Origin: Asticcacaulis sp. MM231
Lineage (GTDB): Bacteria > Pseudomonadota > Alphaproteobacteria > Caulobacterales > Caulobacteraceae
NCBI RefSeq assembly: GCF_964186625.1
Contig: NZ_OZ075108.1
Span: 3,361,001 to 3,425,000, forward strand
Direction of reading: 5' to 3'
Length of the DNA: 64,000 bases
Made by a program: the position numbers and the translations under genes. The notes under the pieces were generated by a model. It had not been told where the DNA came from. It saw only the letters and a list, made by a program, of their open reading frames with translations, and made no database searches. This document shows, piece after piece, positions 23,334-43,083 of this stretch (position 1 is the first letter of the stretch; each line of letters opens with the position of its first letter).

Positions 23334-23906
23334 TTACTGCTCCCTATATACGGTCTCCTCGCCCCACCAGTTATCCTTGTGCGGAAATTTTTTGCGAAAA
23401 TCCGCCCAGTGCGCCGCCGACAGCTCGAAAATATGCAGGTCGTGGCGCACGCCGTCCTTCAGGGCGTGATCCTTCAACACACCGACATGGCGATAGCCGT
23501 TAAACTGCTGAAGGCGCACGGTGCGCTCGTTCCAGGCCACGACATGGTTGACGATCTTGTGCAGCCCCATCGTGACGAAGGCATGGTTGAGCGTGCCAAC
23601 GAAGTTATAGATGGTCAGTTCTTTGGGCGCGGCCGCATCACCGACATAGACCCCGATTTCCCCAATGCCGGAAGCCCGGTCGGTGACGGTAATCGACGCA
23701 TAGCCGACGTCGCGGCCTTCGATCTGGATAATACAGTGCTGATAATCGTCACGCGCGTTGCAGCGCTCGATCCAGGCTTTCTGGCGCTCGATATCGTAGG
23801 GCACATCGGTCAGCATATATTGCGTGATATGCGGCGCGGTGCGCCAGTCGAGCAGCATCTGGGCGTCATCGGGTGTGATACGGCGGTAGCTGAGAAAACT
23901 ATACAT
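23334..23906 (-). CDS. pseH: GNAT acetyltransferase, PseH-like
   Basis: 190 residues from ATG 23906, overlapping the pseG stop by eight bases. GNAT fold with YRRITPDDAQMLLDWRTAPH at the N-terminus, as in PseH/FlmH, and the acyl-CoA region around NHAFVTMGLHKIVNHV. PseH N-acylates UDP-4-amino-4,6-dideoxy-AltNAc, the third step of pseudaminic acid synthesis. Position next to pseG supports this. Given the acyl-ACP genes upstream in the same operon, the acyl group may be something other than acetyl. Confidence 0.8.
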   Translation of the reverse strand: MYSFLSYRRITPDDAQMLLDWRTAPHITQYMLTDVPYDIERQKAWIERCNARDDYQHCIIQIEGRDVGYASITVTDRASGIGEIGVYVGDAAAPKELTIYNFVGTLNHAFVTMGLHKIVNHVVAWNERTVRLQQFNGYRHVGVLKDHALKDGVRHDLHIFELSAAHWADFRKKFPHKDNWWGEETVYREQ

Positions 23907-24888
23907 GGCGCAAGGCCTCCACAATTCGGCGCGGCCCTTCACCATCGACCACGGCATGAGCGTTACGGGCGATCTCGGCCAGACGCGCCGGGTCATCCAG
24001 CAGCGCCTTGACCTGCGCACCGAGATCATCGGGTAGTCCGGCGCGCGCATCGATTACCGGATAGGGGCAGGCCTTCAGCGCCGCGGCCTGATTGTCATAG
24101 ACCACCAGAACCAGCGCCGGCAGGCCCATGGCCGCCACCTCGCCGACACTCCCGCCCGCCGCCGTGATCACCAGGGCGCTGCCAGCCAAAACCCTTGCTA
24201 CACTTGGGGGAGACGCGTAGAGGCGATATCGTTCTAACTTTTGTTCTAATTTTGTTAGATCGTTTGTATGAACATTGGCGGGACCCGCGATTGTCCTCAC
24301 GTGGACACTTTCTATGTTTCGATAGATCCCTTCTATACAAAGGCTTGTGAGCTGTGAAGGGTCGCTGCCGCCAAACATGATGGTGACAAACGGTGCCTCC
24401 GCGCTAACCGGACAGGCTTGGGTGAACTCTTTGCGGATCAGGGCATAGTCAGGACCGAGCCTTAGCCTTGCGCGTGTTTTTCGCTTGTAATCCGCCGGTT
24501 TCGCCGCCTGCGCCGGATTGATCAGCAGGTCGCAATCGAAGCGTTCGAGCACATTGAGATCATCCACGACGGCTACACGCACGGCCTGGCTTTGCAGGGC
24601 GATATAGTCCTCAGTAGCGGCATAGCCATCGATCAGCAGCCAATCCTTGCGCGTCAAATCCAGTGCCGCCATACCCATGAAATCGGCGGCGCTGCCCAAA
24701 GAACCATCGATGCGCACACCTTTGGCGCCGATCTCTTCCAGCCGCGCCATGACCGCCTCACCCAGTTCATTGAGCAGGAAGGTGACCTCGATGCCTTGGG
24801 CTCGTGCTTCTTCGGCAATGGCGAAACAGCGCATGAAATGGCCAAGGCCGATCTGGGTCGAGGCTTCGGTGCGAATAAACAGCCGCAT
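23899..24888 (-). CDS. pseG: UDP-2,4-diacetamido-2,4,6-trideoxy-altropyranose hydrolase
   Basis: 329 residues from ATG 24888, which overlaps the KAS III stop (ATGA). GT-B-type fold with the general-base loop RTEASTQIGLGHFMRC and a UDP-binding C-terminal half (ITAAGGSVGEVAAMGLPALV). PseG removes UDP to release the 2,4-diacylamino sugar that PseI condenses with PEP. Family assignment is good; the exact sugar isomer is inferred from the neighbouring pse genes. Confidence 0.88.
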   Translation of the reverse strand: MRLFIRTEASTQIGLGHFMRCFAIAEEARAQGIEVTFLLNELGEAVMARLEEIGAKGVRIDGSLGSAADFMGMAALDLTRKDWLLIDGYAATEDYIALQSQAVRVAVVDDLNVLERFDCDLLINPAQAAKPADYKRKTRARLRLGPDYALIRKEFTQACPVSAEAPFVTIMFGGSDPSQLTSLCIEGIYRNIESVHVRTIAGPANVHTNDLTKLEQKLERYRLYASPPSVARVLAGSALVITAAGGSVGEVAAMGLPALVLVVYDNQAAALKACPYPVIDARAGLPDDLGAQVKALLDDPARLAEIARNAHAVVDGEGPRRIVEALRHV

Positions 24889-25892
24889 CAGGCCACCCGG
24901 ATGATATCGTGACAGAGCGGCGCCTCGGTTTGCCACACCGCCGTCGACCAGGACCAGCCAACGCCGAAACCGCACAACAGCAAGGTGAGCTGCGGGGCCG
25001 CGGCCACCTTGCTCAGATGATCGCACAGCGCCAAAGGGATCGAGGTCGATGTGGTATTGCCGAAATCACGCACGGCATAAACCAGTTGGTCCTCGCGCGC
25101 CTTAATCTTCTGGCCGAGCGTTTTCAGCATTATGGCGTTCGCCTGATGCAGCACCACGTAGTCCATATCGCCCATGGTCTTGCCGGCCTCATGGAGCGCG
25201 CGTTCAATCGAAGGCGCCACCTGCTTGAGCGAGAACGCCATGACCTGTGTGCCGTCCATGAAGAGTTCCGGCGCGCCAGGCTCAGCCAGACCGCCGGTTT
25301 TTGAGATCAGATAGGGCGCACCGGAGCCATCGGAACCCAGGTCAAACGCGATCTGTCCGTGCTCGGAAAGTTCGAGCGCCGTCACCGCCACGGCGTCACC
25401 AAACAAAGGCGCCAGCGCACGATTCAACTCCGAAATCATATGCGAGGTAATATCGCCCGTCACCAGAAGCGCGCGCCGGATGTTGCCGGACTGCATCATC
25501 GCGTGGGCGACCGAAAGCCCGTAGACATAGCCGGAACAGCCCAGGCTGATATCGAAAGCCGCGGTCGATTTGGCCAATCCCAACCTGTTTTGCAGCAAGC
25601 TGGCGGTGCCGGGCAGCGGATAATCGGGCGTTTGAGTCACCACGATCAGCAGATCGATGCTGTCCGGCGTCCAGCCCAGCCTTTCCAGCAGCACCACAGC
25701 CGCGGCCTCACCCAACTGGCTGACCGTATGACGATCAGCGACCGGACGGCGCTCGATGCCCGTGGCGGCCATGATCTTGGCCATGGTTTCGGCGCCAAAA
25801 CTGGCCGCCAGGTCGGCGTTCTCGCTGACAGCCTCCGGCATTGCGGTAACGATCCCGCACAGTTTCGGGGCTCTGGCTGTGAAACTGACCAT
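24888..25892 (-). CDS. 3-oxoacyl-ACP synthase III (KAS III) homologue 1
   Basis: 334 residues with the complete Cys119 (DISLGCSGYVYGL), His249 (VLHQANAIM), Asn279 (DFGNTTSTSIP) triad. KAS III enzymes condense a primer acyl-CoA or acyl-ACP with malonyl-ACP. It is embedded by ATGA overlaps between an SDR gene and pseG, so it belongs to the acyl-modification operon rather than to general fatty-acid synthesis. Substrate unknown. Confidence 0.88.
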   Translation of the reverse strand: MVSFTARAPKLCGIVTAMPEAVSENADLAASFGAETMAKIMAATGIERRPVADRHTVSQLGEAAAVVLLERLGWTPDSIDLLIVVTQTPDYPLPGTASLLQNRLGLAKSTAAFDISLGCSGYVYGLSVAHAMMQSGNIRRALLVTGDITSHMISELNRALAPLFGDAVAVTALELSEHGQIAFDLGSDGSGAPYLISKTGGLAEPGAPELFMDGTQVMAFSLKQVAPSIERALHEAGKTMGDMDYVVLHQANAIMLKTLGQKIKAREDQLVYAVRDFGNTTSTSIPLALCDHLSKVAAAPQLTLLLCGFGVGWSWSTAVWQTEAPLCHDIIRVA

Positions 25893-26638
25893 CAGGACGT
25901 GAGTCCCCCGTCAACCACCAGGGTTTGCCCCGTGATAAAGCCGGCCTCTTCGGACAGCAGGAAGCGCACCAGATGAACGATATCGGCCAGCTCGCACAAC
26001 CGGCCAAGGGGGGTGCGGCGGACAATCTGGTCGAGTTGCCGGTCGTCCAGACCTTCGGACAGCGCCGTCTTCATATAGCCCGGCGCTACCGAATTGACCG
26101 TGATGCCGATGCGTCCGACCTCACGCGACAAGGCGCGGGAAAAGCCATCCAGGCCAGCCTTGGACGCCGCGTAGGCGCTCAGGCCCGTGTAGCCGCGCAG
26201 GCCCGTGATCGAGGAAATATTGATGATGCGACCGGGTTTGCGAGTCTTCATCATGCGCCGCAGGGCTGACCGCGCCAGACAGATCGCGCCGGTCAGATTG
26301 ACCTGCAGGACGCGCTCTATGTCGCTGACCGGCAGGGTGGACAGGATGCCTTCGACCGACATGCCGGCATTATTGACCACGCCCCATAGGCGCTGACCGT
26401 CAAAGGCCGCGACCGCGCTGCTGACAAAGGCCTCGATGGCTGTTGTATCGGCCATATCGACCGCCTGCCAGACGAACTTGCCACCATGGACATCCTTCAG
26501 CGCCTGCAAATCCTCGCCAAAGGTGGTGCTGCAACCGGCCACGCCATAGCCCTGCGCCAGCAGGTCGCGAGCCAGCGCCAGACCCAGGCCCCGGCTGACG
26601 CCGCTGACGATCAGCCATTTGTGCGGAAGCTCATTCAT
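25892..26638 (-). CDS. short-chain dehydrogenase (FabG-like) 1
   Basis: 248 residues of classical SDR: NAD(P) loop SGVSRGLGLALA, NNAG, catalytic Ser in INISSITG and YAASK. The C-terminal FITGQTLVVDGGL is typical of FabG-type 3-oxoacyl-ACP reductases. Overlaps both neighbours by four bases. The likely role is to reduce the beta-keto product of the adjacent KAS III to a 3-hydroxyacyl-ACP. Confidence 0.85.
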   Translation of the reverse strand: MNELPHKWLIVSGVSRGLGLALARDLLAQGYGVAGCSTTFGEDLQALKDVHGGKFVWQAVDMADTTAIEAFVSSAVAAFDGQRLWGVVNNAGMSVEGILSTLPVSDIERVLQVNLTGAICLARSALRRMMKTRKPGRIINISSITGLRGYTGLSAYAASKAGLDGFSRALSREVGRIGITVNSVAPGYMKTALSEGLDDRQLDQIVRRTPLGRLCELADIVHLVRFLLSEEAGFITGQTLVVDGGLTS

Positions 26639-27705
26639 ACGGACCTCGATTTCTTGCCGGTGGCGCTGATATCGAGCGCGTCGACATAGCGCAGGCTGAC
26701 CGGACGCTGCGCACGCGGCAGCCCCTGCAAGTGTGCCTTGATTTGCGCTTCATCAAAACCGGAATCTGGCTTGAGCACGATATCCGCCACCAGCACATGA
26801 CCTGTGATGGGATTAGGCCTCGCTGAAACGCGCACATCTTGTATGAACGAAAGTTCTAACAGGCATGATTCCACCGCTTCCGGATAGACCTTGACACCGC
26901 CCACATTGACCATGGCGTCGCGGCGCCCCCTGAAGAGAACACGATTTGGCGTCAGTTCGACAATATCGCCGGTATCGAGCCCTTTCACTTCGAGCGTTTC
27001 CTGTTCGGTGACGGACAGATCATCGTTCAGCCAGTCGCGCGGAAAACCGGCCAGACCGTCCTGTACCGAAAAGACGGTGCCGGCCTCGGTCGTGGCGTAG
27101 ATATGACGCAGATGTGCCTGCGGGAAGCGCGCTTTCACAGCATCCAGCAGGGTCTGATCGGCCGCCTCACCGCCCAGGGTCACGCTTTTGAGGGGCAGCG
27201 ATCGGTCACCGAGCGCCATGAGGAAGGCGCGCCAGAAGGTCGGCGTGCCGGAGATATGCGTGGCCTGTTCCGCCACCGCCAGATCGGCCAGATCGGCTAT
27301 GCTGGCACCATGGCCCGGTGCGATCAGGATATGGCCACCGGCCATAGCGGTGAGGATCACCTGAAGGCCGGCAAAACTTCCCGGATGAAAGGTCAGGAGC
27401 CAGCGCGCCCTGTCACCACCGGCCCTGATCCGTGCTTTCAGACGGTCGCGGCTATGCCCCACCCATTTCGGCGCGCCGGTCGTACCGGACGTCTGCAGCC
27501 ACACCTTATCCTCGGCGACTTGCGGCAACGGCACCGAGGCGTCGCGCACCACGAAAACATCGCCGGTTCCCAGAAGCGCAGCGACCACACCCTTTACACC
27601 CGTTTTCGCAACCTCGACGACCGACTCGCCATCCGGGCGTAAATCGTCGCTCGAAAGCGTATGATCACCTTCGATCAGGGTGAAACCGGGGTTCAGGGCG
27701 TCCAT
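26635..27705 (-). CDS. short AMP-dependent acyl ligase (acyl-ACP/CoA synthetase-like)
   Basis: 356 residues from ATG 27705. ANL-superfamily motifs: P-loop LQTSGTTGAPKWVG (about 70-84), YATTEAG, LFRGRRDAMVNVGGVKVYP and a C-terminal Lys in SATGKKSRSV. Usual members have about 500 residues with 150 or more before the P-loop; here only about 70 precede it, so the N-terminal subdomain is much reduced. Directly follows the ACP gene, so it may load a free acid on that carrier. Another possibility is a CoA ligase. Confidence 0.8.
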   Translation of the reverse strand: MDALNPGFTLIEGDHTLSSDDLRPDGESVVEVAKTGVKGVVAALLGTGDVFVVRDASVPLPQVAEDKVWLQTSGTTGAPKWVGHSRDRLKARIRAGGDRARWLLTFHPGSFAGLQVILTAMAGGHILIAPGHGASIADLADLAVAEQATHISGTPTFWRAFLMALGDRSLPLKSVTLGGEAADQTLLDAVKARFPQAHLRHIYATTEAGTVFSVQDGLAGFPRDWLNDDLSVTEQETLEVKGLDTGDIVELTPNRVLFRGRRDAMVNVGGVKVYPEAVESCLLELSFIQDVRVSARPNPITGHVLVADIVLKPDSGFDEAQIKAHLQGLPRAQRPVSLRYVDALDISATGKKSRSV

Positions 27706-27706
27706 T

Positions 27707-27943
27707 TCAGCCGCCAAACAGTGCGGCAAGTTCCCCTGCCGTATGGAACAGCACAAAGCCGTTGGCGAAGGGCGTCAGGCCGGTTTTTTCTTCCAAAGTC
27801 ACCACAAGCGTCGCCAGATCGAGGCTGTCGATATCATAGGGACCATTGAGCAGCGGCGTATCGGCGTTGATCTCGCCGGTCTGCGCGCCCTTATCATGCA
27901 GGAGCGTGCGAAGGTCTTCACGGATCATGTCGAGGGCAGTCAT
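27707..27943 (-). CDS. acyl carrier protein 1
   Basis: 78 residues, acidic and helical, with the phosphopantetheine Ser in DIDSLDLATLV. Start ATG 27943 overlaps the hydrolase stop (TAATG). A long upstream extension of the frame is a read of the hydrolase gene. It lies between a hydrolase and an acyl ligase, so it is probably the dedicated carrier for the pathway. Confidence 0.85.
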   Translation of the reverse strand: MTALDMIREDLRTLLHDKGAQTGEINADTPLLNGPYDIDSLDLATLVVTLEEKTGLTPFANGFVLFHTAGELAALFGG

Positions 27944-28761
27944 TACGGCAAAAATTCCTTCAGGTGAGCGACAACGGTGGCAGAGGCCTCCATATGCGGC
28001 AGATGGCCGGCGCCTTCGATCAGGTGCAAGGGCGCGGATGTGGGCAGGCGATGCGCTTGTGGCATGGGGATCAAACGGTCGTGGTCGCCCCACATGATCT
28101 GAACCGGACACATGACGCGGTTCCAGTCAAAACCTTCGGGCGAAAGCGCCAGACCATAGGCCTTGGCGTTGCCGAGCAAAGCTTTCAGCCCCTCACGGCG
28201 CGCCGGATCGGCCGCCGCATTTTGCAATGAGGCGGTCAGGGACGCGCCGAGATTTTGCCCGCGCGGCCCAAGTAACTGACGTGCCAGGGCTTCAGCATCG
28301 TCACCGCCCAAAAAGGCATCCAGCGCGTCAAGGTGGAAATTGCCACCAAGCCCCGCCGGTGCGATCAGCGACAGCGATTTGACGCGCTCAGCATGACTCA
28401 AAACAAAACCGAGCGCGATCTTGGCGCCCATGGAATGGCCAACGATATGCGCGGACGCAATATCGAGGACATCAAACGCTTCTTTCAGCCAGCCGGTCAT
28501 AAAGACCAGCGACGCATCGCCAACATCGGACGCGCCGCGGCCATGACCCGGCAGATCGAGCGCGATCAGGCGGTATGTCGCGGCAAGCGGCACAAGGCAC
28601 AGTTGCCAGGTCAGGAGGTCGGCGCCGAACCCATGGACAAAGACCACGGTTTCACCCGCCGGATTGCCCATTTCGAGATAGCTGAGCGGTCCGTGGCTGT
28701 GCTTTTCCGACAGCGACAGACTGATTTTACGCGACGGCTTGATCGGCGCATGTGCGTTCAC
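27943..28761 (-). CDS. alpha/beta hydrolase, possible thioesterase or acyltransferase
   Basis: 272 residues from GTG 28761, which overlaps the SDR stop as GTGA; the much longer open frame has no codon bias outside this. Nucleophile Ser in VGHSMGAKIALG, oxyanion FVHGFGADLLTW, acid Asp in MWGDHDRLIP and His in GAGHLPHME. In this operon it may release or transfer the acyl chain from ACP. It is not distinctive enough to name a substrate. Confidence 0.8.
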   Translation of the reverse strand: MNAHAPIKPSRKISLSLSEKHSHGPLSYLEMGNPAGETVVFVHGFGADLLTWQLCLVPLAATYRLIALDLPGHGRGASDVGDASLVFMTGWLKEAFDVLDIASAHIVGHSMGAKIALGFVLSHAERVKSLSLIAPAGLGGNFHLDALDAFLGGDDAEALARQLLGPRGQNLGASLTASLQNAAADPARREGLKALLGNAKAYGLALSPEGFDWNRVMCPVQIMWGDHDRLIPMPQAHRLPTSAPLHLIEGAGHLPHMEASATVVAHLKEFLP

Positions 28762-29516
28762 GCCAGAAATCCTCCGTCTACGGACAGTATCGAACCGGTG
28801 ATCCAGCGCGAGGTGTCGGCCAGGAGGAAAGCTATGGCGGCGGCGACATCGTCCGGCCTTCCGAGGCCAAGCGGGTGCATATCGACCACGCGTTTGAAAT
28901 TCTCTTCCGAGAGGATAGTGCGAAACTGATCCGACATCGGCGTATCGACCATGGCCGGCGCGACCGCGTTGACCCGCACGCCATCGCGCACCAGTTCGAC
29001 GCCCAGTCCCTTCACGGCCGAAACGATGCCCCCCTTGGATGAGGCATAGACCACATTGCCGGGCGCTGTGCGCAGCGCGGCCGACGACGAGCAATAGACC
29101 AGAGAGGCCGGAGAACCGTGGCAGGCCTTGAGGCGGAAGGCCTGCGCCAGCATCAGGGCAGCGCCGAGATTCTGCGTCAGGACGTCCATCACGAAGGCCG
29201 AGTTGATCGACTGGATCGGCTTAGTGGCCTGCACGCCGGCGCAATGGGCGATGCCGTTGAGCGGCCCGATGTCGGCGCACAGGGCTTTCAGCCACGGCAC
29301 GATGGCGTCTAGATCGGCAAGATCAAACAGACGGCCGATATGGCCATGACCTTCTAACGCTGCCAATGTTTCGTCCAGGCGCGCCTCATTGCGCCCCGAA
29401 GCCACGACGCGCGCGCCCAGCTTCGACAGATAGATGGCCGTCGCCTTGCCGATACCGCTGGTGGCGCCAGTGACGAGGATGGTACGGCCTTCGAGGGACA
29501 TGGGATTAAATGTCAT
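28758..29516 (-). CDS. short-chain dehydrogenase (FabG-like) 2
   Basis: 252 residues. SDR motifs TGATSGIGKATA, HCAG, YCSSSAAL and YASSK, ending in WITGSILSVDGGF. Start ATG overlaps the Rieske gene stop by four bases. A second reductase for the same operon: one may act on the 3-oxoacyl chain and the other on a hydroxylated intermediate or the sugar. Confidence 0.85.
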   Translation of the reverse strand: MTFNPMSLEGRTILVTGATSGIGKATAIYLSKLGARVVASGRNEARLDETLAALEGHGHIGRLFDLADLDAIVPWLKALCADIGPLNGIAHCAGVQATKPIQSINSAFVMDVLTQNLGAALMLAQAFRLKACHGSPASLVYCSSSAALRTAPGNVVYASSKGGIVSAVKGLGVELVRDGVRVNAVAPAMVDTPMSDQFRTILSEENFKRVVDMHPLGLGRPDDVAAAIAFLLADTSRWITGSILSVDGGFLA

Positions 29517-30607
29517 ATTACACTTTCCATGCGCTTCGCGTAGGCCTGCTGAAAATGGGCGATGCGGCCTTCCAGTTCGCCCAGAACAGGCGGGCGCTCG
29601 GGGGGGGCATCGCGTGTGCCAAATTGCGCCACGGCGCAGATGTCGCGGTCCTCGTTACGCACCTGCGCGGAGAAAGCTTTCAGGCTGTCGATCACCATGC
29701 CGCGCGCGGCCCGCCCATTGTTCCTGGCCAGCCAGGAGGTCGAGTGGATGCGCAGGGTTTGCGGCCCCGTCGGCTCGAAGGTCTGGAAGGTCAGGAAGGC
29801 GCCGGCGGAAAAGGTGACGACGATATTGGGGAAGATCAGGAAGTTGCCATATTGCGGATAGCGTTCGGAGGGCTCGAGCCTGATGCTTTTCGCCACCTGC
29901 CCCCACCATTTCAGCGAGCGCTCTTTCAGATGGCCGACATAGCGGCTGTGCTCGGCGTCGGTCGAGATTTTCAGGTCGATGCTGAGGATCAGGCCAAAGC
30001 TTTCAGCATGGACCAGCGGCACATGATAGCCTTCAGCGGCGTTATCCATGCCAAGCTTCCAGTTGGCCGCCCAGTCATAGCTTTCCTGTTCGAAATGGTC
30101 CGGGCAAATCTCGCTGACGTGTTTGAGATCGTCATAAAAACTGCCGAGGAATTCGGCCACTGAAGGGCCGCCACGCTTCATCCGCACGAAGACGAAATGA
30201 CCGACCGTTTCCAGTTCATAGCTCTCCAGCGACAGCGCCACCTTATCGGTCTCATCGAGCCCAAAGCTTTGCTTATTGAGCGGCACGCCGATCGGCTTGC
30301 CGAAGTCATCATAGGTCCAGCCGTGATAGGGGCATTGCAGGATGCGATTGCCCTTGCCGCACTGAATCTTCGAGAAACGATGCGAGCAGACATTGCGGAA
30401 GGCCTTCAGCTCACCGCCGAAATTCTGCACCACGATGGAATGCGGCCCGATCTGCGCCGTGATAAAATCCTTGTCGTTTTGCAGATCGCGCACAAAACCG
30501 ACGCATAACCACGACGGCTTGAAAACATGCTCGATCTCGGCCGCCAGGACGTCCTCGCGCCAGTAATGATCTGCCGGAATATGTCCAAGTCTGTCCTGAT
30601 ACGTCAT
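29513..30607 (-). CDS. Rieske non-heme iron oxygenase, alpha subunit type
   Basis: 364 residues from ATG 30607. The Rieske cluster ligands are C74, H76 (NVCSHRF) and C92, H95 (CPYHGW). The mononuclear iron site is DNAAEGYHVPLVH, with E192, H195 and H200. Ring-hydroxylating and N- or C-oxygenating enzymes share this layout. No ferredoxin or reductase subunit gene is nearby, so electrons must come from elsewhere. It sits inside the acyl operon by ATGA overlaps on both sides, which is an unusual place for this family. Confidence 0.88.
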   Translation of the reverse strand: MTYQDRLGHIPADHYWREDVLAAEIEHVFKPSWLCVGFVRDLQNDKDFITAQIGPHSIVVQNFGGELKAFRNVCSHRFSKIQCGKGNRILQCPYHGWTYDDFGKPIGVPLNKQSFGLDETDKVALSLESYELETVGHFVFVRMKRGGPSVAEFLGSFYDDLKHVSEICPDHFEQESYDWAANWKLGMDNAAEGYHVPLVHAESFGLILSIDLKISTDAEHSRYVGHLKERSLKWWGQVAKSIRLEPSERYPQYGNFLIFPNIVVTFSAGAFLTFQTFEPTGPQTLRIHSTSWLARNNGRAARGMVIDSLKAFSAQVRNEDRDICAVAQFGTRDAPPERPPVLGELEGRIAHFQQAYAKRMESVI

Positions 30608-31704
30608 CAGGCCAGCTCGACGATCTGCGGGGCCGGCATGGGGCCGACGGTCAACTTGATGGCGCTCCACGACCAGCCGACGCCGAAACCCATCATGATC
30701 AGGCTTTGCGGCTTATCGAAAACCTGCGAGAGTTTCGCAGCGATGGTCAGCGGAATCGAGGCCGACGAGGTGTTGCCGAAGGTTTCCATGGCCACCGGCA
30801 CCTTGTCTTCCGGCAGGCCCGACTTCTTGCGCAAATGGTTGAGCATGAAGACATTGGCCTGATGGAACAGGACGTAATCGACGTCTTCGATCGTCGTGCC
30901 CGACGTTTCAAAGATCGCTTTGACCAGGCCCGGCACGTTTTTCAGCGTGAAATTGAAAACCTCGGTGCCGTTAAGATGCAGGCGCGACTTGCGGTACAAC
31001 TCCTCAAGTTTTTCGGGGCTGTGCGGCTCTTTCGGCGGCAACAAGGGGTGCTTCAAACCACCGGCTTCGACCATGATATGCGCCGCACCCGAACCATCTG
31101 TGCCAAAGACACCATACCAGTCAGAGTTTGGCCAGCGAGAATTTGGCATGTCGTCCGCCTGCGGATCAATTTCCAGCGCCGTGGCCGAGCCGGCGTCACC
31201 AAACAGCGGAATGGTGCTGCGATCGCCTTCCAGAAGCTTCGAGGTACTGACGTCACCGGCCAGAACCAGAGCCCGCGCCGGACGGCCGGAGACTTTCAGG
31301 GTCTGCATCAGCGAGGCCGCCGTCCACAGGCCATAGGCATAGCCGGAACAGCCGAGATTGATATCGAAGGCGAGGCAGGAACCTAGCCCCAAGCGCGCCT
31401 GCAGGGCGCAGGCGGTGGAGGGAATGACGAAATCGGCGCTTTGCGTCACCATGATCAGCACATCGATAAAGTCGCGCGCCCAGCCCAGTTCATCAAGCAG
31501 GCCATCCGCCGCTTTCTGACACAGATCAGAGGTCAGGATATCCGGACGGGCGATATGACGCGAACGCACACCAATCGTGCCGATCAGGCGTTCGCGCTCC
31601 GCCTCGTCGGGGATCAGGTTTTCCTCGGCCAGGGTGCGCGTTTGCGCCGGCACGCAGGCACGTATGCCACGTAAACTGACGCCTTTCAGAACTGCCTCGG
31701 TCAT
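30607..31704 (-). CDS. 3-oxoacyl-ACP synthase III (KAS III) homologue 2
   Basis: 365 residues, first gene of the minus-strand acyl/pse operon. Triad: Cys119 (DINLGCSGYAYGL), His281 (FHQANVFML) and Asn311 (TFGNTSSASIP). An insertion of about 30 residues around 180-240 makes it longer than FabH (about 320). The two KAS III copies in the operon are only moderately alike, so they probably have different substrates rather than being a recent duplication. Confidence 0.88.
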   Translation of the reverse strand: MTEAVLKGVSLRGIRACVPAQTRTLAEENLIPDEAERERLIGTIGVRSRHIARPDILTSDLCQKAADGLLDELGWARDFIDVLIMVTQSADFVIPSTACALQARLGLGSCLAFDINLGCSGYAYGLWTAASLMQTLKVSGRPARALVLAGDVSTSKLLEGDRSTIPLFGDAGSATALEIDPQADDMPNSRWPNSDWYGVFGTDGSGAAHIMVEAGGLKHPLLPPKEPHSPEKLEELYRKSRLHLNGTEVFNFTLKNVPGLVKAIFETSGTTIEDVDYVLFHQANVFMLNHLRKKSGLPEDKVPVAMETFGNTSSASIPLTIAAKLSQVFDKPQSLIMMGFGVGWSWSAIKLTVGPMPAPQIVELA

Positions 31705-31839
31705 GACCGCACCTCAATTACGCAACGCTTATCGGTGATTCGCTTGCGCGACCCCACCATAACACTTCGCATTAACCCTTTAAGGGAATATTGACGGAAT
31801 CAGGATTTCACTGAAGCCTTACGTTTCCGGAGTACCCCC
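31705..31839. promoter_or_regulatory. divergent promoter region of the acyl genes
   Basis: 135 bases between the minus-strand operon (from 31704) and the plus-strand ACP (31840). It contains CATTAACCCTTTAAGGGAATATTG, here at about 31771-31794, an AT-rich stretch with a TTAA pair that is too closely spaced for CtrA. Both transcripts must start here; no certain -35/-10 could be assigned. A CGGAG ribosome site precedes ATG 31840. Confidence 0.5.
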
Positions 31840-32061
31840 ATGGATAAGCCCGCCTTTTTCGCCGCCGTCGCCGAGATCCTCGAAGCCGATCCCGCTGGCT
31901 TGACCGGCGCTGAGACCATCAACGATATCGGCAACTGGGACAGCCTGTCGGTCATCTCGTTCGTCGCCATGGTCGATAGCGATATGGACCAGATCGTCGA
32001 TGCCGAAATGCTGAAGGACGCCAAGACCCTGAACGACCTGGCGGCGCTCGTCGGCCTGTAG
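31840..32061 (+). CDS. acyl carrier protein 2
   Basis: 73 residues, acidic, with phosphopantetheine Ser in GNWDSLSVISF. Starts with MDKPAFFAAVAEILEADP. Divergent from the KAS III operon and followed 15 bases later by the PhyH gene, so it is probably the carrier for that oxygenase's substrate. Distinct in sequence from the other ACP in the cluster. Confidence 0.85.
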   Translation: MDKPAFFAAVAEILEADPAGLTGAETINDIGNWDSLSVISFVAMVDSDMDQIVDAEMLKDAKTLNDLAALVGL

Positions 32062-32076
32062 AAAGTCGGGCCTGTC

Positions 32077-32997
32077 ATGGTTTCTTTAGCCGAGCGCCTG
32101 AAGACCCGCGTGCCGAACTGGCAGCGCTTCTTTCAGCGCGCCCGCGAAGACGCCCGCAACCCGGCCTATGACCTGCTGCCGGTGCTGGGGCTCGATCAGC
32201 GCAACGGCTTCTCCCGCACGCTTGCGGCCTTTTCGCCCAAAACGCCGGGCTTCAGGCTAACCGACGCTCAGGCGATCCTGCATGAGCAGTTGCGCCGCGA
32301 TGGCCTGACGGGCTTGCAACCGCCCCTGCCGGCCGGCGTGCTCAGCGATCTTGTCAGCTATTTCAAGACCACCCCGTGCCACGATCCCTATCGCCCGCAC
32401 CTTGGTCTTTTTGACTGGGATCAGCCACCGTCTGATGAGATCAATATCGGATATTATACCTGGGAAGAGGTTCTGCGCGCGCCGCACATGCTCGACCTGA
32501 TGAATGATCCGGATATTCTGGCCGTCGCCGAGGCCTATCTCGGCTGCAAGCCGGTGATCGACAATATCGGGGCCGCCTGGGGGTATCCCGGCCGCAACAC
32601 CGCCAAGGGCGTCCAACGCTTTCACCGCGATTACGACTGTTCGCGCTGCTTCAAGGCTTTCTATTATCTGACCGATATCGACGCGATGTCAGGGCCGCAC
32701 ACATACGTCAGGGGCTCGCATCAGGATCGGCGGCTGGAAAGCGGCAAGGCCCAGACCGACGACGCCATCATCGAGGCCTTCGGCGCGGACGCCATCGAGA
32801 CCATCACTGCGCCGGCCGGCTCGTGGTTCCTTGAGGATGTTTACGGCTTCCATAAAGGGCAGTTGCCGGCCGACAAGCCGCGCCTGCTGCTGGCGATCGA
32901 GTATAATCTCTACCCGTCGCCGCTGTCTCCCAAACAGCCGCTAATGGAACGCGTGCCGCAGCATGATCCCTATATCAATAAGCTCTTCCTGAAATGA
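32077..32997 (+). CDS. phytanoyl-CoA dioxygenase (PhyH)-like Fe/2-oxoglutarate oxygenase
   Basis: 306 residues. The iron facial triad is H183 and D185 (RFHRDYD) and H259 (GFHKG), with Arg269 as the probable 2-oxoglutarate anchor. PhyH-type enzymes hydroxylate acyl-CoA, acyl-ACP or tethered amino-acid chains, often at alpha or beta carbons. The ACP gene just before it suggests a carrier-bound substrate. This is the second oxygenase in the acyl cluster. Confidence 0.83.
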   Translation: MVSLAERLKTRVPNWQRFFQRAREDARNPAYDLLPVLGLDQRNGFSRTLAAFSPKTPGFRLTDAQAILHEQLRRDGLTGLQPPLPAGVLSDLVSYFKTTPCHDPYRPHLGLFDWDQPPSDEINIGYYTWEEVLRAPHMLDLMNDPDILAVAEAYLGCKPVIDNIGAAWGYPGRNTAKGVQRFHRDYDCSRCFKAFYYLTDIDAMSGPHTYVRGSHQDRRLESGKAQTDDAIIEAFGADAIETITAPAGSWFLEDVYGFHKGQLPADKPRLLLAIEYNLYPSPLSPKQPLMERVPQHDPYINKLFLK

Positions 32998-33042
32998 GAC
33001 TTTTATGAAGAATAACCCCATTTCAGTTCCTTTCCTGGTCGC

Positions 33043-33079
33043 GCACTTTATCCGAAAAGTGCCGATACCTTGTCGGATT
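33043..33079. repeat. paired hairpins before pseF
   Basis: GCACTTT-atccg-AAAAGTGC at 33043-33062 is followed by CCGA-taccttg-TCGG. The first arm nearly matches the element after rlmH (GCACTTTCCGAAAAGTG), which suggests a dispersed intergenic repeat. Confidence 0.5.
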
Positions 33080-33087
33080 GCGCTTGT

Positions 33088-33774
33088 ATGAAACGCGTCG
33101 CCATCATCCCCGCCCGCGGCGGCTCGAAACGTATTCCGCGCAAGAACATCAAGCCGTTTTTCGGCCAGCCCATGATCGGCTATTCCATCCGCGCGGCGCA
33201 AGAGTCCGGCCTGTTCGACAGCATCGTTGTCTCGACCGATGACGAGGAAATCGCCGATGTTGCGCGGTCCTTCGGCGCCGATATCCCCTTCATGCGCCCC
33301 GCCGATCTCGCCAATGATCATGCCGGCACCGGTGCGGTCGTCGTCCATGCCCTGCAATGGTTCGCTGAACACGGTATGGCCTATGACGCCGCCTGCTGCA
33401 TCTACGCCACCGCCCCGCTGCTCGATCCCGAACGCCTGAGAGAAGGCTGGGACAGATTGCAGGGCAAGCGCTTTGCTTTTTCCGTCACCTCGTACGCCTT
33501 CCCGATCCAGCGCGCCCTGAAAAAGACCGCCGATGGCAGCGTCGATATGTTCTGGCCGGAAAACCTGACCAAGCGCTCACAGGATCTGGAACCCGCCTAT
33601 CATGATGCGGCGCAATTCTACTGGGGCTGGAGCGACGCCTGGGTGAACGGTGAAACCGCTTTCTCCCCCATCTCCGCGCCGGTCATCCTGCCTCGCACGC
33701 AGGTGGTCGATATCGATTCGCCCGAAGACTGGGAAGTCGCGGAAGTGACCTACCGCGTGCTGAAAGGCGTTTAG
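33088..33774 (+). CDS. pseF: pseudaminic acid cytidylyltransferase
   Basis: 228 residues from ATG 33088. The CMP-sialate synthetase signature IPARGGSKRIPRKNIKPFF opens the protein and FDSIVVSTDDEEIADVA follows; the length and the AQFYWGW segment fit PseF rather than sialic NeuA. It activates pseudaminate with CTP for a glycosyltransferase. It lies downstream of the ACP/PhyH pair on the same strand. Ends four bases before the convergent TRIC-like gene. Confidence 0.88.
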   Translation: MKRVAIIPARGGSKRIPRKNIKPFFGQPMIGYSIRAAQESGLFDSIVVSTDDEEIADVARSFGADIPFMRPADLANDHAGTGAVVVHALQWFAEHGMAYDAACCIYATAPLLDPERLREGWDRLQGKRFAFSVTSYAFPIQRALKKTADGSVDMFWPENLTKRSQDLEPAYHDAAQFYWGWSDAWVNGETAFSPISAPVILPRTQVVDIDSPEDWEVAEVTYRVLKGV

Positions 33775-33778
33775 CGTT

Positions 33779-34411
33779 CTAGTATTCCGTCTCACCGCCG
33801 CCCTGCGCAAAGCCTGGCAGGCGCAGATTGTAGCGGATGGCGCAGGCCCGCAGGGCCACACCAGCGAAAAATCCGACCAGGGCCGCCAGCCAGAAATCGG
33901 CCCCCATCAGGGTCATACCCGCGAAGACGCCCGCGCTGAGCAGGGCCGCCGTGACATAGATTTCGCGGCTCATCAGCAGATTGGGTTCTCCCGCCAGCAC
34001 GTCACGGATCACGCCCCCGAAACACGAGGTCAGAACCCCCATGATGATCGCCGAGAAGGGGTGAACACCGAGGCTCAGGGCCTTGGCCGTTCCGACGACC
34101 GCATAGGCCGCCAGCCCGACGGCGTCGAGCCACAGCAGCGCACGGAAGCGCCAGCCGCGCCTGGCGAAGATCCAAACCCCTACCGCCGCCACCAGACAGG
34201 CCACAATATAGCCGGGCCGCTGCACCCAGAAGACCGGCGCACCGATCAGCAGGTCTCGCATGGTGCCGCCGCCGACGCCCGTAATGGCGGCGAAGAAGCC
34301 GAAGGTGACGATATCCTGACGTGTGCGCGCGGCGGCCAAAGCGCCCGATGCGGCGAAAACGGCGACGGCGGCATAGTCAAGCCAGTAAAGGGCGGTCTCA
34401 AAAGCGGTCAT
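33779..34411 (-). CDS. UPF0126/TRIC-like seven-helix membrane protein
   Basis: 210 residues from ATG 34411. Two repeats of the family core are visible, GVGGGTMRDLLIG and SCFGGVIRDVLAGEP, each followed by hydrophobic helices. Bacterial members are monovalent cation channels or have been linked to glycine uptake. It appears unrelated to the pse genes that flank it. Confidence 0.88.
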   Translation of the reverse strand: MTAFETALYWLDYAAVAVFAASGALAAARTRQDIVTFGFFAAITGVGGGTMRDLLIGAPVFWVQRPGYIVACLVAAVGVWIFARRGWRFRALLWLDAVGLAAYAVVGTAKALSLGVHPFSAIIMGVLTSCFGGVIRDVLAGEPNLLMSREIYVTAALLSAGVFAGMTLMGADFWLAALVGFFAGVALRACAIRYNLRLPGFAQGGGETEY

Positions 34412-34497
34412 GACGGGCGACTTATCACATCCGTTAAGGGTAGTGCCAGTGCGTGGGCGATATGCTACCGAGGTTTTTACAACCATGGGGGACGAAC

Positions 34498-35627
34498 GTG
34501 CAGACCTTAAAAGCTTTCATAGATCGGGAGATCACCGGCCCCTTGCTGAAGCGCAAGGCAATCGCCTGGATGGCTTGCGCGCCTTGTGTGCCCTGGCGGT
34601 CGTGGGGGATCATTGCGGCTTGCCACTGGATGCCCTGTCGCTCATCGCCGTCTGGATCTTCTTTGCGATCAGTGGTTTCCTTATTTTTCCCATTCTCTTC
34701 CGCGCCCGCCAGCCCATCGAAAACGACCAAACACGCGTGCTGGAAGAGATCCGCCTGTTGATGACAGACCGCGCCCTGCGTATCCTGCCGATCTATTACG
34801 GCATCCTGCTGGCGGTATGGCTATGGGGTCAGGTCTCACCGCAAGACGAGCAATACCTCGAACTGCTCAAAGGATGGCCCTGGTTCGTTACCTATACGAC
34901 CAACCTCTATATAACGCATGTGATCCACGACTGGGTCGACGCCTTTAGTGTGTTCTGGTCACTGGCGATCGAGAAGCAGTTTTACTTCCTCTTCGCGCCC
35001 TGCTTCCTTATGTTACCTAGCCGTTTGTGGCGCCCGGCGCTCATAACCGGCGCCCTTCTGCTGATGGTCATCGTCCTCGTGTTTTACCGCCACGATACTG
35101 AACTCGGCAGTTATACCAATTCGTTCTCAGGCTTTTACGCCATCAGTCTGGGTGGTCTGGCGGGCTTAGGCGGTTACAACCTGCAGGTCAAACTGCGCCG
35201 TTTCGCTGACCCACTTCTGTTGGCTCTCATGGCCCTGATTGTCATCTCGTCGGCGCTGCACGGCAGCCCAAAGGGCTTTATGCTGAGCCTGTTCAGCCTG
35301 CCCCTGATCGCCGGCGCCTTGCTGATCACCACGGCGTCCGCACAACTAAGCCGGTTGGTACGCCTGCTCGAGGTATGGCCGTTGCACCTGTTGGGTATCG
35401 TGTCTTATGGATTTTACATTATCCATCTGTTCGGCATACTGCTGGCTGGCTAAATCGTCGACGCCCTGCCTTTCGTCTTTGGCGAGCTGGCCTATTCAGG
35501 CGCCGTTTTCGTCATCGCCTCGCTCATCAGCCTGCTCATCGCCTGCCTGACCTACCTCCTGATAGAGCGCCCCTTTCTCAAGCTCAATCAAAAACCCGCG
35601 AAGCTGTCTCCGGCTTCGCGGGCTTAA
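34498..35627 (+). pseudogene. acyltransferase-3 (OafA-like) gene 1, frameshift and premature stop
   Basis: Integral-membrane acyltransferase of about 376 residues. GTG 34498 has GGGGGA upstream and the N-terminus QTLKAFIDREITGPLLKRKA matches that of the second copy (MQALTGFFRR..). One missing base near 34560 moves the reading to LDGLRALCALAVVGDHCGL, with the catalytic His, and RALRILPIYYG. TAA at 35451 then interrupts the last part; translation beyond it gives a final helix and YLLIERPFLKL, the usual family C-terminus. Such proteins acetylate surface sugars. At least the nonsense codon cannot be explained by a one-base indel. Confidence 0.8.
35591..35622 (-). terminator. intrinsic terminator of the glycine-zipper gene
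   Basis: Perfect 10-bp arms CCCGCGAAGC / GCTTCGCGGG with an 8-base loop; on the minus strand it is followed by TTTT. It lies 25 bases past the stop at 35647 and inside the dead end of the acyltransferase gene. Confidence 0.75.
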
Positions 35628-37208: not shown

Positions 37209-37986
37209 ATGCAGGCATTGACGGGTTTCTTTCGCAGGACGATCTTTGATCCGATCCTTTGCAACCGCAAGGCTGTGCTTGGCCTCGATGGTTTGCGCGG
37301 CTTTTTGCGCCGTTGAGGTATGCGCCTGCCATGCGGGCATACCGGAGGGGGGCCTTGCCAGCATTTGCGTCTGGATCTTTTTCGTGATCAGCAGCTTTCT
37401 GCTGGCGCTCTATATCTATTGTCAGTTCGCGCCCAGCAGCTACGAATATATGTGCATGATGCGCGGCCTGCCGTGGTTCCTCACCTATACAGGCAACATA
37501 TATGCTGAGTTCACGCCGGAAAATATGCTGAACTCGATTGGCCACTTCTGGTCGCTGGCCGTGGAGCAGCAATTTTATTTCCTGTTGGCACCCTTGCTGC
37601 TGTTCGTGCCGGGAAAATACTGGAAACGCCTTCTTATTGGCTTTTCAGTCTTTTCCATCGCGCTCGGTGGAGCGCTCGGCTTAACCCAAACCTTCTTCAC
37701 GCCGATTTATACGTCGTTTCTCGGCTTTTACTTTGCAACGCTCGGCGGGCTTGCCGGCTTGAGCAGGCTGGCGGATATTCGCGTAGGCAAGGTCACGCTG
37801 GAGTCCTTACGCCCTTATGCCGATCCGTTGCTGATCGGTATTTTTGCCCTGATCGTTTTCTGCGGCCTTTCCCAGGGGCATCTGGCTGTGATCAACGACG
37901 CGACAACGACTGTATTTACGCCCCTGTTCGCTACAGCGCTTGTCCTTTCCATAAGTGCATTCCCGCAAACCGGCTTTGTCCGCTTC
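37209..37986 (+). pseudogene. acyltransferase-3 gene 2, 5' part (frameshift, internal deletion, split by IS)
   Basis: ATG 37209 with GGGGACGACT upstream. The frame runs MQALTGFFRRTIFDP to LDGLRG and then, past a run of five T at 37302-37306, shifts to FCAVEVCACHAGI...VWIFFVISSFL. Removing one T restores the frame. Relative to copy 1 it lacks about 45 residues, including the RALRILPIYYG region thought essential in this family. It breaks off after ..FVRF where the IS110-family element begins; the remainder is at 39394-39666. Clearly inactive. Confidence 0.8.
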
Positions 37987-39393
37987 TGTAACGGGCCACT
38001 TAAAGTCAATCCCTTTTGAGCCATTTCCGATCGCCGGCTTCGTGCTTCTGTCCGCAGTCATCTCTGAGAGCGCTGCATGATGGTGTAGGAAAAAGGCTCG
38101 GCCGACCAATCTTTAGGTCGCAGTCCTATTCGGCTGCGAGCGGACATGCGGTCTGACCGATCCTCGCGTCCCGGCGAAGGGACCTGGCTCAGGCCGAGGA
38201 TGGTAGAGCGGCCTGAGGGTGTAATATGTCAGGCCATGGCAGCCCTTTCTGTTTGGGTAGCCGCAAAGTCCTGCCCATTGCGGAGCATGGCATGCATGAT
38301 GACGCCGAGCTTCCTGGCCAAGGCGACCTTGGCCTTTTTCAGGCCCGAGCGCGTGGCAATCGCTGTCGCCCACGCTTTCAGGCGTATGGCTTTGCTGGGC
38401 CGGATCATGATTGTGTTCGCCGCCTCGTAAAGAGCTGTGCGTACGCTGGCATCCCCCGTCTTTGAGATGCGGCCGGTGTAGTCTGTTTCTCCTGACTGAT
38501 ACTTTCGCGGGGTCAGTCCGAAGTGTGGACCAATGTCGCGTGACGAGGAGAACCGCTCGGCTTGGTCGATAGCAGATACAAAAGTCAGCGAGGTTAGAGG
38601 GCCGACGCCGGGTATGGTCATCAGTCGACACGTTCGCTGGTCGGCCTTTGCCATAGCTAGAACCTTTCGATGGAGAAGGTTGAACTGCTCCAGAAGGGCC
38701 TGTCGGGCGTCGAGTATTGACCTGGCGATCTGCGTCAGCGTCTCATGACCTTCGCAAAGTTCAAGTATCCGAGCTTCGAATCCTCCGGTTGATATGGCGC
38801 CGACCTTCAGGCCAAAGCCCCGAAGAATACCACGAAGACTTTTCTCGATGTCTAGAAGCTTTGTTTGCAGAAGCTTGCGTGCGGTCAAGACCGCACGGAC
38901 TTCCTGAGCCGGCTGAGATTTGCAATGTACAGGGCGGAACCAGCCCAGCCGCATCAGTTGAGCAATGCCGCGAGCATCCTTCTTGTCGGTCTTGACCGGC
39001 ATAATTTTAAACGCCGTGCGCACATGCCGGGTCTCGATCAGTTCGCAGGATAACCCTTTGGCCGTCATCTCGGCATAGAGCCATTGCGACAACGGACCGG
39101 CTTCAAGGCCGATGAGCTCGAGCTCAGCTCCGAAGGCCGCAAACCACGCGACCAGGGATTTCAGGATCGCTCAACGCTTCGCCTTTGCGACAAATTTTGC
39201 CCGCCGCATCGACAACGCATACACTTGAACGTTCCAAAGACACATCAATTCCGGCATAGTATTTCATGGTCGTCTCTCGATGATGCTTGGCGCAGGCCAC
39301 TAACCTGACGCCGTTGGTTGATGACACCATCATTCTGAGGGACGACCACCAAAGCGCAAGCCCTGGCTAAAGCCGGCCCGTTACCCCATCTTT
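37987..39393 (-). mobile_element. IS110-family (IS1111-like) element in an acyltransferase gene
   Basis: About 1.4 kb. Near the ends are inverted GTAACGGGCC (37988-37997) and GGCCCGTTAC (39375-39384), a few bases inside the junctions, as in subterminal repeats of the IS1111 group. The interrupted protein resumes in frame after the element (FVRF | MEIAPMHF). There is no evident target duplication, which fits the family. About 120 bp lie before and 240 bp after the transposase frame. The exact ends are uncertain by several bases. Confidence 0.75.
38229..39267 (-). pseudogene. IS110-family transposase (frameshifted)
   Basis: ATG 39267 begins MKYYAGIDVSLERSSVCVVD, the RuvC-like DEDD first motif of IS110 transposases. 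After LSDPE the frame shifts; the rest (WFAAFGAELELIGLEAGPL, then TDKKDARGIAQLM, and the C-terminal PGVGPLTSLTFVSAI and GLTPRKYQSGE Tnp_20 motifs) is intact. Deleting one A from GAAATC at 39157-39162 gives DPESLVAWF and a continuous 345-residue protein. It could be an error, since all catalytic parts are kept. Confidence 0.8.
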
Positions 39394-39666
39394 ATGGAAA
39401 TCGCCCCGATGCACTTCGTCGGTGTCGTGTCCTACGGCTTCTATGTGTTCCATATGCTGATCATAGCGCGGATGGACCGTTTTATTACCGACCATCTGCC
39501 CAATATCTCAGACCATGTCTTTGCCGTTGAGCTTTTCCTGATGACCGTCCCTGTCACCCTGGTCATCGCAACCCTCTCCTACGCCTATTACGAGCGCCCC
39601 TTCCTGAAGATGCGCAAGGGCTGGAACCCGTTCCGGCCGACGATCAAAGCGGCAGCTGCGGACTAA
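39394..39666 (+). pseudogene. acyltransferase-3 gene 2, 3' part
   Basis: 90 residues, MEIAPMHFVGVVSYGFYVFH to YAYYERPFLKMRKGW, matching the C-terminal helices of acyltransferase copy 1. This is the end of the gene begun at 37209, now cut off by the IS110-family element. Confidence 0.8.
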
Positions 39667-43019: not shown

Positions 43020-43083
43020 CTGGCGCCTTGATACTGACATCCGGACGCAATCCGTCCGTGGCCGGCAGTTTGCCCGTGTGCGG

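Follow-up and report, generated by a model that had tools for sequence, protein, structure and literature searches.

Acyl-supply genes are already known in pseudaminic acid (pse), viosamine or flagellin islands. In the viosamine islands of Pseudomonas syringae pv. tabaci 6605 and P. aeruginosa PAK (acp, vioS, vioR, vioB; orfB-E), an acyl carrier protein (ACP), a type III beta-ketoacyl-ACP synthase (KAS III) and a 3-oxoacyl-ACP reductase lie beside the amino-sugar genes, and the product, which carries a 3-hydroxy-1-oxobutyl group on the 4-amine, has flagellin as its target (PMC3927599; this source, like those below, is drawn on in excerpt). The group II islands of Aeromonas combine pseBC and pseFGHI with an ACP, a 3-oxoacyl-ACP reductase and an AMP-dependent synthetase (PMC7874193), and Enterobacteriaceae flagellin islands with ACP, ligase and FabG genes are a further known precedent. 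Here we describe a 64,000-nucleotide stretch of DNA from Asticcacaulis sp. MM231 (the window), in which a cassette of KAS III, ACP, short-chain dehydrogenase/reductase (SDR) and Rieske oxygenase genes is interleaved with genes for pseudaminic acid (Pse), and compare it with loci (L numbers) from other genomes (G numbers). The linkage between the acyl cassette and Pse is real. With moderate confidence we propose that a dedicated ACP pathway makes a short oxygenated acyl group, which a PseH-type GNAT puts on the 4-amine of the sugar (N7 of Pse); the cells probably decorate a surface sugar in an unusual way, perhaps on their flagella.

Organisation of the locus

The minus strand carries a tightly packed operon (31704-23334) that begins with KAS1, a KAS III-type synthase (30607-31704; PF08541/PF08545), followed by a Rieske non-haem iron oxygenase alpha subunit (29513-30607; PF00355 and PF00848, Ring_hydroxyl_A), SDR1 (28758-29516; PF13561/PF00106), an alpha/beta hydrolase with a GTG start (ABH, 27943-28761; PF12697, Abhydrolase_6) and ACP1 (27707-27943; PF00550, PP-binding, 25.7 bits against a cut-off of 20.8). 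It continues with a short AMP-ligase (26635-27705; PF00501, AMP-binding, and PF13193, AMP-binding_C), the FabG-like reductase SDR2 (25892-26638; best NCBIfam match TIGR01830, 200.9 bits, below the cut-off of 297.75), KAS2, a second KAS III (24888-25892; PF08541/PF08545), the UDP-sugar hydrolase gene pseG (23899-24888; TIGR03590, 174.5 against 153.55) and the gene for the PseH-type GNAT, the proposed acyltransferase to the 4-amino sugar (23334-23906; PF13302). A preliminary description of this DNA had reported one operon in which nearly all neighbours overlap by one to eight bases, and its order and coordinates hold: the overlaps are 1 base for KAS1/Rieske, 4 for Rieske/SDR1, 4 for SDR1/ABH, 1 for ABH/ACP1, 4 for AMP-ligase/SDR2, 1 for SDR2/KAS2, 1 for KAS2/PseG and 8 for PseG/PseH. 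At the ACP1/AMP-ligase junction there is a 1-base gap if the ligase starts at the internal ATG at 27705, which is likely, or a 50-base overlap if it starts at the TTG at 27756 where the reading frame opens. The ligase is short, its best PF00501 stretch beginning at profile position 168 of 384.

On the plus strand (31840-33774) a divergent set runs from ACP2 (31840-32061; PF00550, 28.3 against 20.8) through a PhyH-like putative 2-oxoglutarate (2OG) dioxygenase (32077-32997) into pseF, for the CMP-Pse synthetase (33070-33774; TIGR03584, 325.2 against 205.7). This layout is as previously described, while the PhyH assignment itself is weak, with PF05721 scores of 16.6 in the window, 12.1 for the L024 copy and 26.8 for the L071 orthologue against a gathering cut-off of 22. 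All reading frames of the operon and the divergent set are open. The remaining pse genes were correctly placed at 39.7-43.0 kb, on the minus strand: pseI, for Pse synthase (39708-40760; TIGR03586, 513.5 against 340.25), the adjoining pseC, for the 4-aminotransferase (40757-41944; TIGR03588, 466.6 against 423.5), and pseB, for the inverting 4,6-dehydratase (41967-43040; TIGR03589, 513 against 407.75). PseB, PseC, PseG, PseI and PseF all score above curated cut-offs, and the CMP-Pse pathway is complete, with PseH sub-threshold.

Residues expected of active enzymes are kept. The Cys, His and Asn columns of KAS1 (C119, H281, N311) are invariant in 13 genus sequences and their KAS2 counterparts are kept in 7 copies; we take these to be the KAS III catalytic triad. 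The CxH/CxxH motifs of the Rieske protein, presumably its cluster, and H195, H200 and D320, presumably the 2-His-1-carboxylate iron site, are invariant in 14 sequences, as are H183xD185, H259 and R269 of the PhyH-like protein in 9, which we take to be the HxD...H plus Arg motif of PhyH/2OG dioxygenases. Both ACPs keep their serines in 7 copies each (DSLD in ACP1, DSLS in ACP2), and the catalytic serine motif of ABH, GHSMG, is found in 13 of the 14 relatives' copies.

The acyl cassette is conserved with pse genes in Asticcacaulis

KAS1, the Rieske oxygenase and the cassette-type PseH fall in an identical 18 of 25 genus genomes, KAS1 presence being taken as the second match of a KAS2 search, and in 14 of these 18 no PseH-like match (E up to 1e-5) other than the cassette PseH is found. 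Comparison of neighbourhoods in relatives, which the preliminary description had proposed, finds the core order in 17 genus loci including the window. KAS1, Rieske, SDR1, PseG, PseH, ACP2 and PseF are present in all 17 loci with both sides visible, while the other genes vary (ABH in 15, KAS2 in 14, PhyH in 13, ACP1 in 9, SDR2 in 9 and AMP-ligase in 7). The smallest sets, in L064 and L066, hold only KAS1, Rieske, SDR1, PseG and PseH with ACP2, PhyH and PseF; L063 adds ABH to these, and L067-L071 add ABH and KAS2. L061 and L062 have ABH, KAS2, ACP1 and SDR2 with PhyH absent, and the AMP-ligase is also present in the loci of seven genomes, the window's included. One further locus (L065) stops at a contig edge; KAS1 and Rieske are found on a different contig of that genome (G023). 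Two Asticcacaulis genomes (G020 and G016; L075 and L076) have pseG, pseF and a canonical PseH with the string RGKGLG, with no acyl-gene match within 20 kb.

Within the genus the AMP-ligase (E up to 1e-30) and KAS2 also occur in an identical set of genomes, 14 of 25, which we do not use as support: in 7 of these 14 genomes the AMP-ligase lies elsewhere, at 40-41% identity. Five of the displaced ligases are accompanied by an ACP and a FabG-like gene (L027-L031) and two are not (L032, L033), and they may serve other pathways. In L027 (6634-17368), the sole member of L027-L031 scanned for neighbouring families, the ACP/AMP-ligase/FabG-like trio lies apart from pse, among MBOAT, GT2, epimerase and GMC genes.

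Twelve genes of the window are 94-98% identical in DNA to those of A. benevestitus (L021), with dN/dS of 0.03-0.24 for the 11 that could be computed. Since the core order also recurs in 17 genus loci, the arrangement is beyond chance. The Rieske gene is the only cassette gene replaced in A. benevestitus, by two divergent oxygenases (L021 12852-15039) whose proteins are 52% and 55% identical to the window's, with dS near 1.9. In a quick tree made without bootstrap the window's Rieske gene clusters with the L061 (A. taihuensis) and L062 copies, and so the A. benevestitus pair looks like the changed state. The exchange of a single oxygenase while the rest of the operon stays the same would be consistent with selection for surface-sugar variation.

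Occurrence outside the genus

Scanning one genome per species with a KAS1 alignment, we confirmed 117 loci and considered the best 80, of which 69 lie outside Asticcacaulis. At KAS1 identities of at least 43.5%, a line drawn after inspecting the loci, 16 of 17 non-genus loci have pse genes in their flanks, the exception (L116) being a 5 kb contig, compared with 1 of 52 below it (L142, Paenibacillus anaericanus; Fisher p = 1.5e-13, for loci that are not independent and some of whose flanks are short). Rieske matches are found in 10 of the 17 close and 7 of the 52 distant loci. Because of the exact co-occurrence in 18 of 25 genus genomes and the pse linkage of 16 of 17 close homologues, the acyl genes belong with pse, as the preliminary description had held. 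It had also asked whether they recur as a unit without pse genes: followed through KAS1, close homologues do not, though distant KAS III/SDR pairs do sit in other, non-pse loci, often with a DegT-type aminotransferase match.

Carriers outside the genus include Nitrospirillum, Acetobacter lambici and several Rhodospirillales, and Niveispirillum has KAS1 with only PseG in its flanks. Most of the cassette is found in Azospirillum and Herbaspirillum, the locus of Herbaspirillum sp. YR522 having the AMP-ligase and KAS2 too, and the core in Nitrospirillum, Acetobacter and others. The linkage spans Alpha- and Betaproteobacteria and one Paenibacillus. Among plasmids, 6 of 49 records with a PseI match were examined. 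Plasmid p3 of Azospirillum brasilense Sp7 (gene calls from annotation and tblastn) carries pseG, an SDR, KAS III, Rieske (SRPBCC), an SDR, a PseH-type GNAT and a nucleotidyltransferase, and onward a TPR protein, glycosyltransferases, pseI, ACP, ABH, ACP, AMP-ligase, SDR, KAS III and flagellin; its 31 kb contain no PhyH match. In 25 kb each around pse, S. meliloti Rm41, S. fredii NGR234, Sphingobium TKS and Mesorhizobium 113-3-3 show no KAS III, nor does S. fredii CCBAU 83666 in 25 kb at its PseI locus. AMP-ligase and FabG-like matches, with no KAS III match, occur in a further two proteobacterial pse loci (L204, L209).

A branch of PseH linked to KAS III

In a tree of 57 PseH sequences, 26 of them KAS III-linked and many of these found through KAS1 or PseH similarity, which biases the sampling, the KAS III-linked PseH form one clade (support 99/97) to which the window PseH belongs. 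The KAS III label changes 2 times on the tree, against a shuffled mean of 19, and none of 500 shuffles was as low. The clade also contains L218, where no KAS III was found in 20 kb or further stretches and KAS1 lies about 55 kb away on the same contig. Seven pse-linked PseH without KAS III (L212-L214, L223, L230, L232, L234) form a separate branch. Left out of the tree were nine GNATs without KAS III (L224-L229, L231, L233, L235), two long branches (L209, L215), two sequences (L100, L150) identical to L216 and L220, and the KAS III-linked Bacteroidota sequences L110 and L146 (22-26% identity, no pse genes), which an earlier PseH tree had placed outside the clade. The PseH of Paenibacillus anaericanus (L142) joins the clade on a long branch, and cross-phylum transfer is possible behind its pse locus.

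Two counts start from PseH and not from KAS III. Across 385 genomes of the class, PseH similarity gave 8 matches beyond Asticcacaulis, and the stretches fetched for 6 of them contain KAS III, though the KAS1 scan had also picked up the genomes of at least two of these (L216, L220). A PseH family model run over 398 genomes of the phylum matched above its cut-off 17 times, in 15 genomes. A clear KAS III accompanies one of these matches (L210), which lies inside the clade, and another (L197) has a 26% KAS III match only. The suggestion that PseH places the acyl group receives indirect support, from the KAS III-linked clade and from the 14 of 18 genomes in which the cassette copy is the sole PseH-like match.

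Proposed pathway and alternatives

The enzymatic steps, acyl structure, position and target proposed here are predictions from the gene content, order, conservation and linkage observed above. PseB and PseC would make UDP-4-amino-4,6-dideoxy-AltNAc. In parallel, KAS1 would condense a short acyl-CoA with malonyl-ACP2, SDR1 would turn the product into a 3-hydroxyacyl-ACP by reduction, and further oxygens would be added by the Rieske enzyme, with the PhyH-like enzyme where present (13 of 17 genus loci); the acyl group is probably short, 3-hydroxylated and further oxygenated. The PseH-type GNAT would then move this chain, not acetyl, onto the 4-amine of the sugar (N7 of Pse), and PseG, PseI and PseF would complete CMP-Pse. 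ACP1, AMP-ligase, SDR2 and KAS2 may be a second, optional module for the loading and extension of another acid, and FlmG-like transferases beside the flagellins probably attach the sugar to flagellin.

The P-loop of PseH might bear on the acyl donor. Within the genus RGKGLG occurs in 5 of 5 non-cassette and 0 of 18 cassette PseH, and a looser Q/RxxGxG/A pattern in 6 of the 18 aligns to the strand before the loop. We considered loss of this P-loop motif as proof of a donor switch and rejected it. Several non-KAS PseH elsewhere also lack the motif, the Nitrospirillum PseH keeps a glycine-rich loop and the P-loop of H. pylori PseH is itself atypical (PMC4964394), so that the loss is weak evidence, and the change in cassette PseH fits, without proving, an ACP donor.

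Those three loop observations count against our proposal, as do several others. PseH fails its curated cut-off (TIGR03585, 62.2 against 93.1 bits) and belongs to a clade of its own. Both KAS III proteins fail the FabH cut-off (TIGR00747; KAS1 172.4 and KAS2 196 against 292.1), so their label, also given in the preliminary description, rests on Pfam domains and the kept triad. PhyH is missing from 4 of the 17 genus loci and ABH from 2 (L064, L066), so neither is essential to a shared product. The 31 kb of A. brasilense Sp7 p3 have no PseB, PseC or PseF match, and the Sp7 polar flagellin glycan reportedly consists of Rha, Fuc, Gal and GlcNAc, with no Pse, as far as the excerpted source goes (PMC3958885). 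A dedicated KAS III may not be needed, since psb genes make 7-N 3-hydroxybutyryl-Pse, with Psb5 as the predicted acyltransferase (PMC3628348). Finally, a C. crescentus mutant lacking flmH and its two paralogues is, in the excerpt, unlike neuB or flmA mutants (PMC7591256); the FlmH step can be redundant, which weakens the argument from a single PseH-like gene.

The alternative that survives best, though we think it unlikely, is oxidation by the Rieske and PhyH-like enzymes of the sugar or a sugar-nucleotide in place of the acyl chain. The replacement of the Rieske gene in A. benevestitus among neighbours 94-98% identical is compatible with it, as tailoring of any part would allow such a swap. 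Against it stands the joint occurrence of KAS III and Rieske matches outside pse loci (7 of 52), which shows that the pair can exist apart from Pse but does not settle the substrate.

We give still less credence to the idea that PseH acetylates from acetyl-CoA while the cassette acyl goes elsewhere, to N5, a hydroxyl or a neighbouring sugar, by way of ABH, a KAS III working as an acyltransferase, or a membrane acyltransferase. Acyltransferase-3 genes do lie nearby (34410-35453 and 37246-38019, the second below its Pfam cut-off), ABH is found in 15 of 17 loci with its serine motif nearly always kept, and C. jejuni 11168 carries an unusual acyl group, di-O-methylglyceroyl, at N5 (PMC3068675). 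Yet the window copy of the second acyltransferase-3 gene is broken by an insertion, A. benevestitus (L291) has matches to no more than fragments of either gene, ABH is missing from L064 and L066, and it is PseH, unlike ABH or acyltransferase-3, that tracks KAS III in 18 of 18 genomes. A separate lipid or signal, made by genes that only happen to lie next to pse, is very improbable as the cassette's product. A small acyl product could be made with two KAS III, two ACPs, a ligase and a hydrolase, but the genes co-occur exactly in 18 of 25 genomes, are interleaved with pseF, pseG and pseH, and are linked to pse in Alpha- and Betaproteobacteria and one Paenibacillus.

Returning to acyl transfer by PseH, we suggest more tentatively, and with rather less than even confidence, that this is a recurring system: a C4-type acyl group at N7, made with a private ACP, KAS III and ketoreductase (KR), tailored by a Rieske enzyme that can be exchanged, and attached by a PseH branch that depends on ACP. 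By our arithmetic, Pse would then have a residue mass near 360.15 Da (3-hydroxybutyryl), 376.15 Da (dihydroxybutyryl) or 392.14 Da instead of the 316.13 Da of Pse5Ac7Ac. If the proposal is true, a KAS III-linked PseH with a Rieske gene would be a genomic signature predicting non-acetyl pseudaminic acids, the cassette would supply candidates for the genes behind oxygenated acyl groups of nonulosonic acids, and an acyl-ACP-using PseH branch could be tested in Asticcacaulis and A. brasilense Sp7.

Glycan target

The genome of the window has five matches to the Pfam flagellin model, three of them at C1:1717049-1720009, and two tandem FlmG-like genes (C1:1712301-1715382) adjoin these three; one more FlmG-like gene lies on C3. 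We call these genes FlmG-like for their position and their resemblance (29-41%) to the TPR protein of A. brasilense. With A. brasilense flagellin as query no match was found in the window's genome. From this setting we infer flagellin as the glycan target, though in the genus pseB is neighboured by a WecG-family transferase, which might instead indicate a surface polysaccharide. In A. brasilense Sp7, overexpression of RpoE6 raised a minor flagellin and an adjacent beta-ketoacyl-ACP synthase/FabG pair, which may or may not belong to the cassette (PMC12826043).

In the window the WecG/TagA glycosyltransferase (43137-43902) is split over two frames with 10 bases between the matching parts, while in relatives (L291-L295) the parts are 9 bases apart and in frame; the split is either a real frameshift or a sequencing error.

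Other features of the window

Between the divergent operons lies a conserved 16-base element, TTTAAGNNAATRTTGA (31779-31794, plus strand), found exactly in 14 of 17 genus intergenic regions. It matches once in the window against 0.23 expected, and 18 of 100 shuffles gave at least one match. A 17-base form with at most one mismatch has 1 match in the genome, as does a reversed control pattern, and a role as a promoter element common to flagellin genes was rejected because the element is absent from the 20 kb flagellin region. The acyltransferase-3 gene at 37246-39666 is broken by an IS110-family element (transposase 38229-39092). A DegT-type aminotransferase gene (16459-17619) lies near msrB in 14 of 20 genus loci checked, at 81-92% identity, and also in L075, whose pse locus is without the acyl cassette.

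Comparison with known systems

The presence of KAS III, ACP and SDR genes in Pseudomonas flagellin islands, stated in the preliminary description, agrees with the published account, and the viosamine-type set of KAS III, KR and ACP beside a 4-amino-sugar pathway is present here. Unlike the cassette, those islands make dTDP-viosamine and not Pse, and their gene table, as excerpted, lists one KAS III, one ACP and a methyltransferase, with no Rieske or PhyH gene (PMC3927599). The window likewise has the Aeromonas group II combination of pse genes with ACP, 3-oxoacyl-ACP reductase and AMP synthetase. The group II islands differ in having luxE, luxC and many glycosyltransferases, with no KAS III or Rieske gene mentioned in the excerpt, and their authors suggest a liposugar component (PMC7874193); a general Pfam scan of the window proteins, in which no search was aimed at them, named none of luxC, luxE and Fgi-1. 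The linking sugar of A. piscicola AH-3 is a Pse derivative of 376.14 Da (PMC7874193), which by our own arithmetic, and not by the authors' statement, matches Pse5Ac7Ac with one acetyl replaced by dihydroxybutyryl (376.148), though other formulas may fit.

The Pse locus of C. jejuni NCTC 11168 presumably also holds ACP and KAS III genes. Its Pse has an N-acetyl replaced by an oxygenated short acyl, 2,3-di-O-methylglyceroyl, at N5, unlike the position proposed here (PMC3068675). Shigella boydii type 7 makes 7-N-(R)-3-hydroxybutanoyl Pse, with a 3-hydroxyacyl group at N7 as in our proposal; its source, in the part available, mentions no dedicated KAS III set, unlike the cassette (PMC3628348). Within the Caulobacterales, C. 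crescentus has a Pse pathway and FlmG-dependent flagellin glycosylation, as proposed here, with FlmH listed as an N-acetyltransferase and terms for acyl carrier or hydroxybutyr- absent from the excerpted text (PMC7591256). The earlier view that the combination was unique was overstated, given the precedents in Pseudomonas, Aeromonas and Enterobacteriaceae and the presence of the cassette in Azospirillum, Herbaspirillum and others. The version with both KAS III and Rieske genes, of which we found no description for a pse locus among open-licence papers, recurs in several genera.

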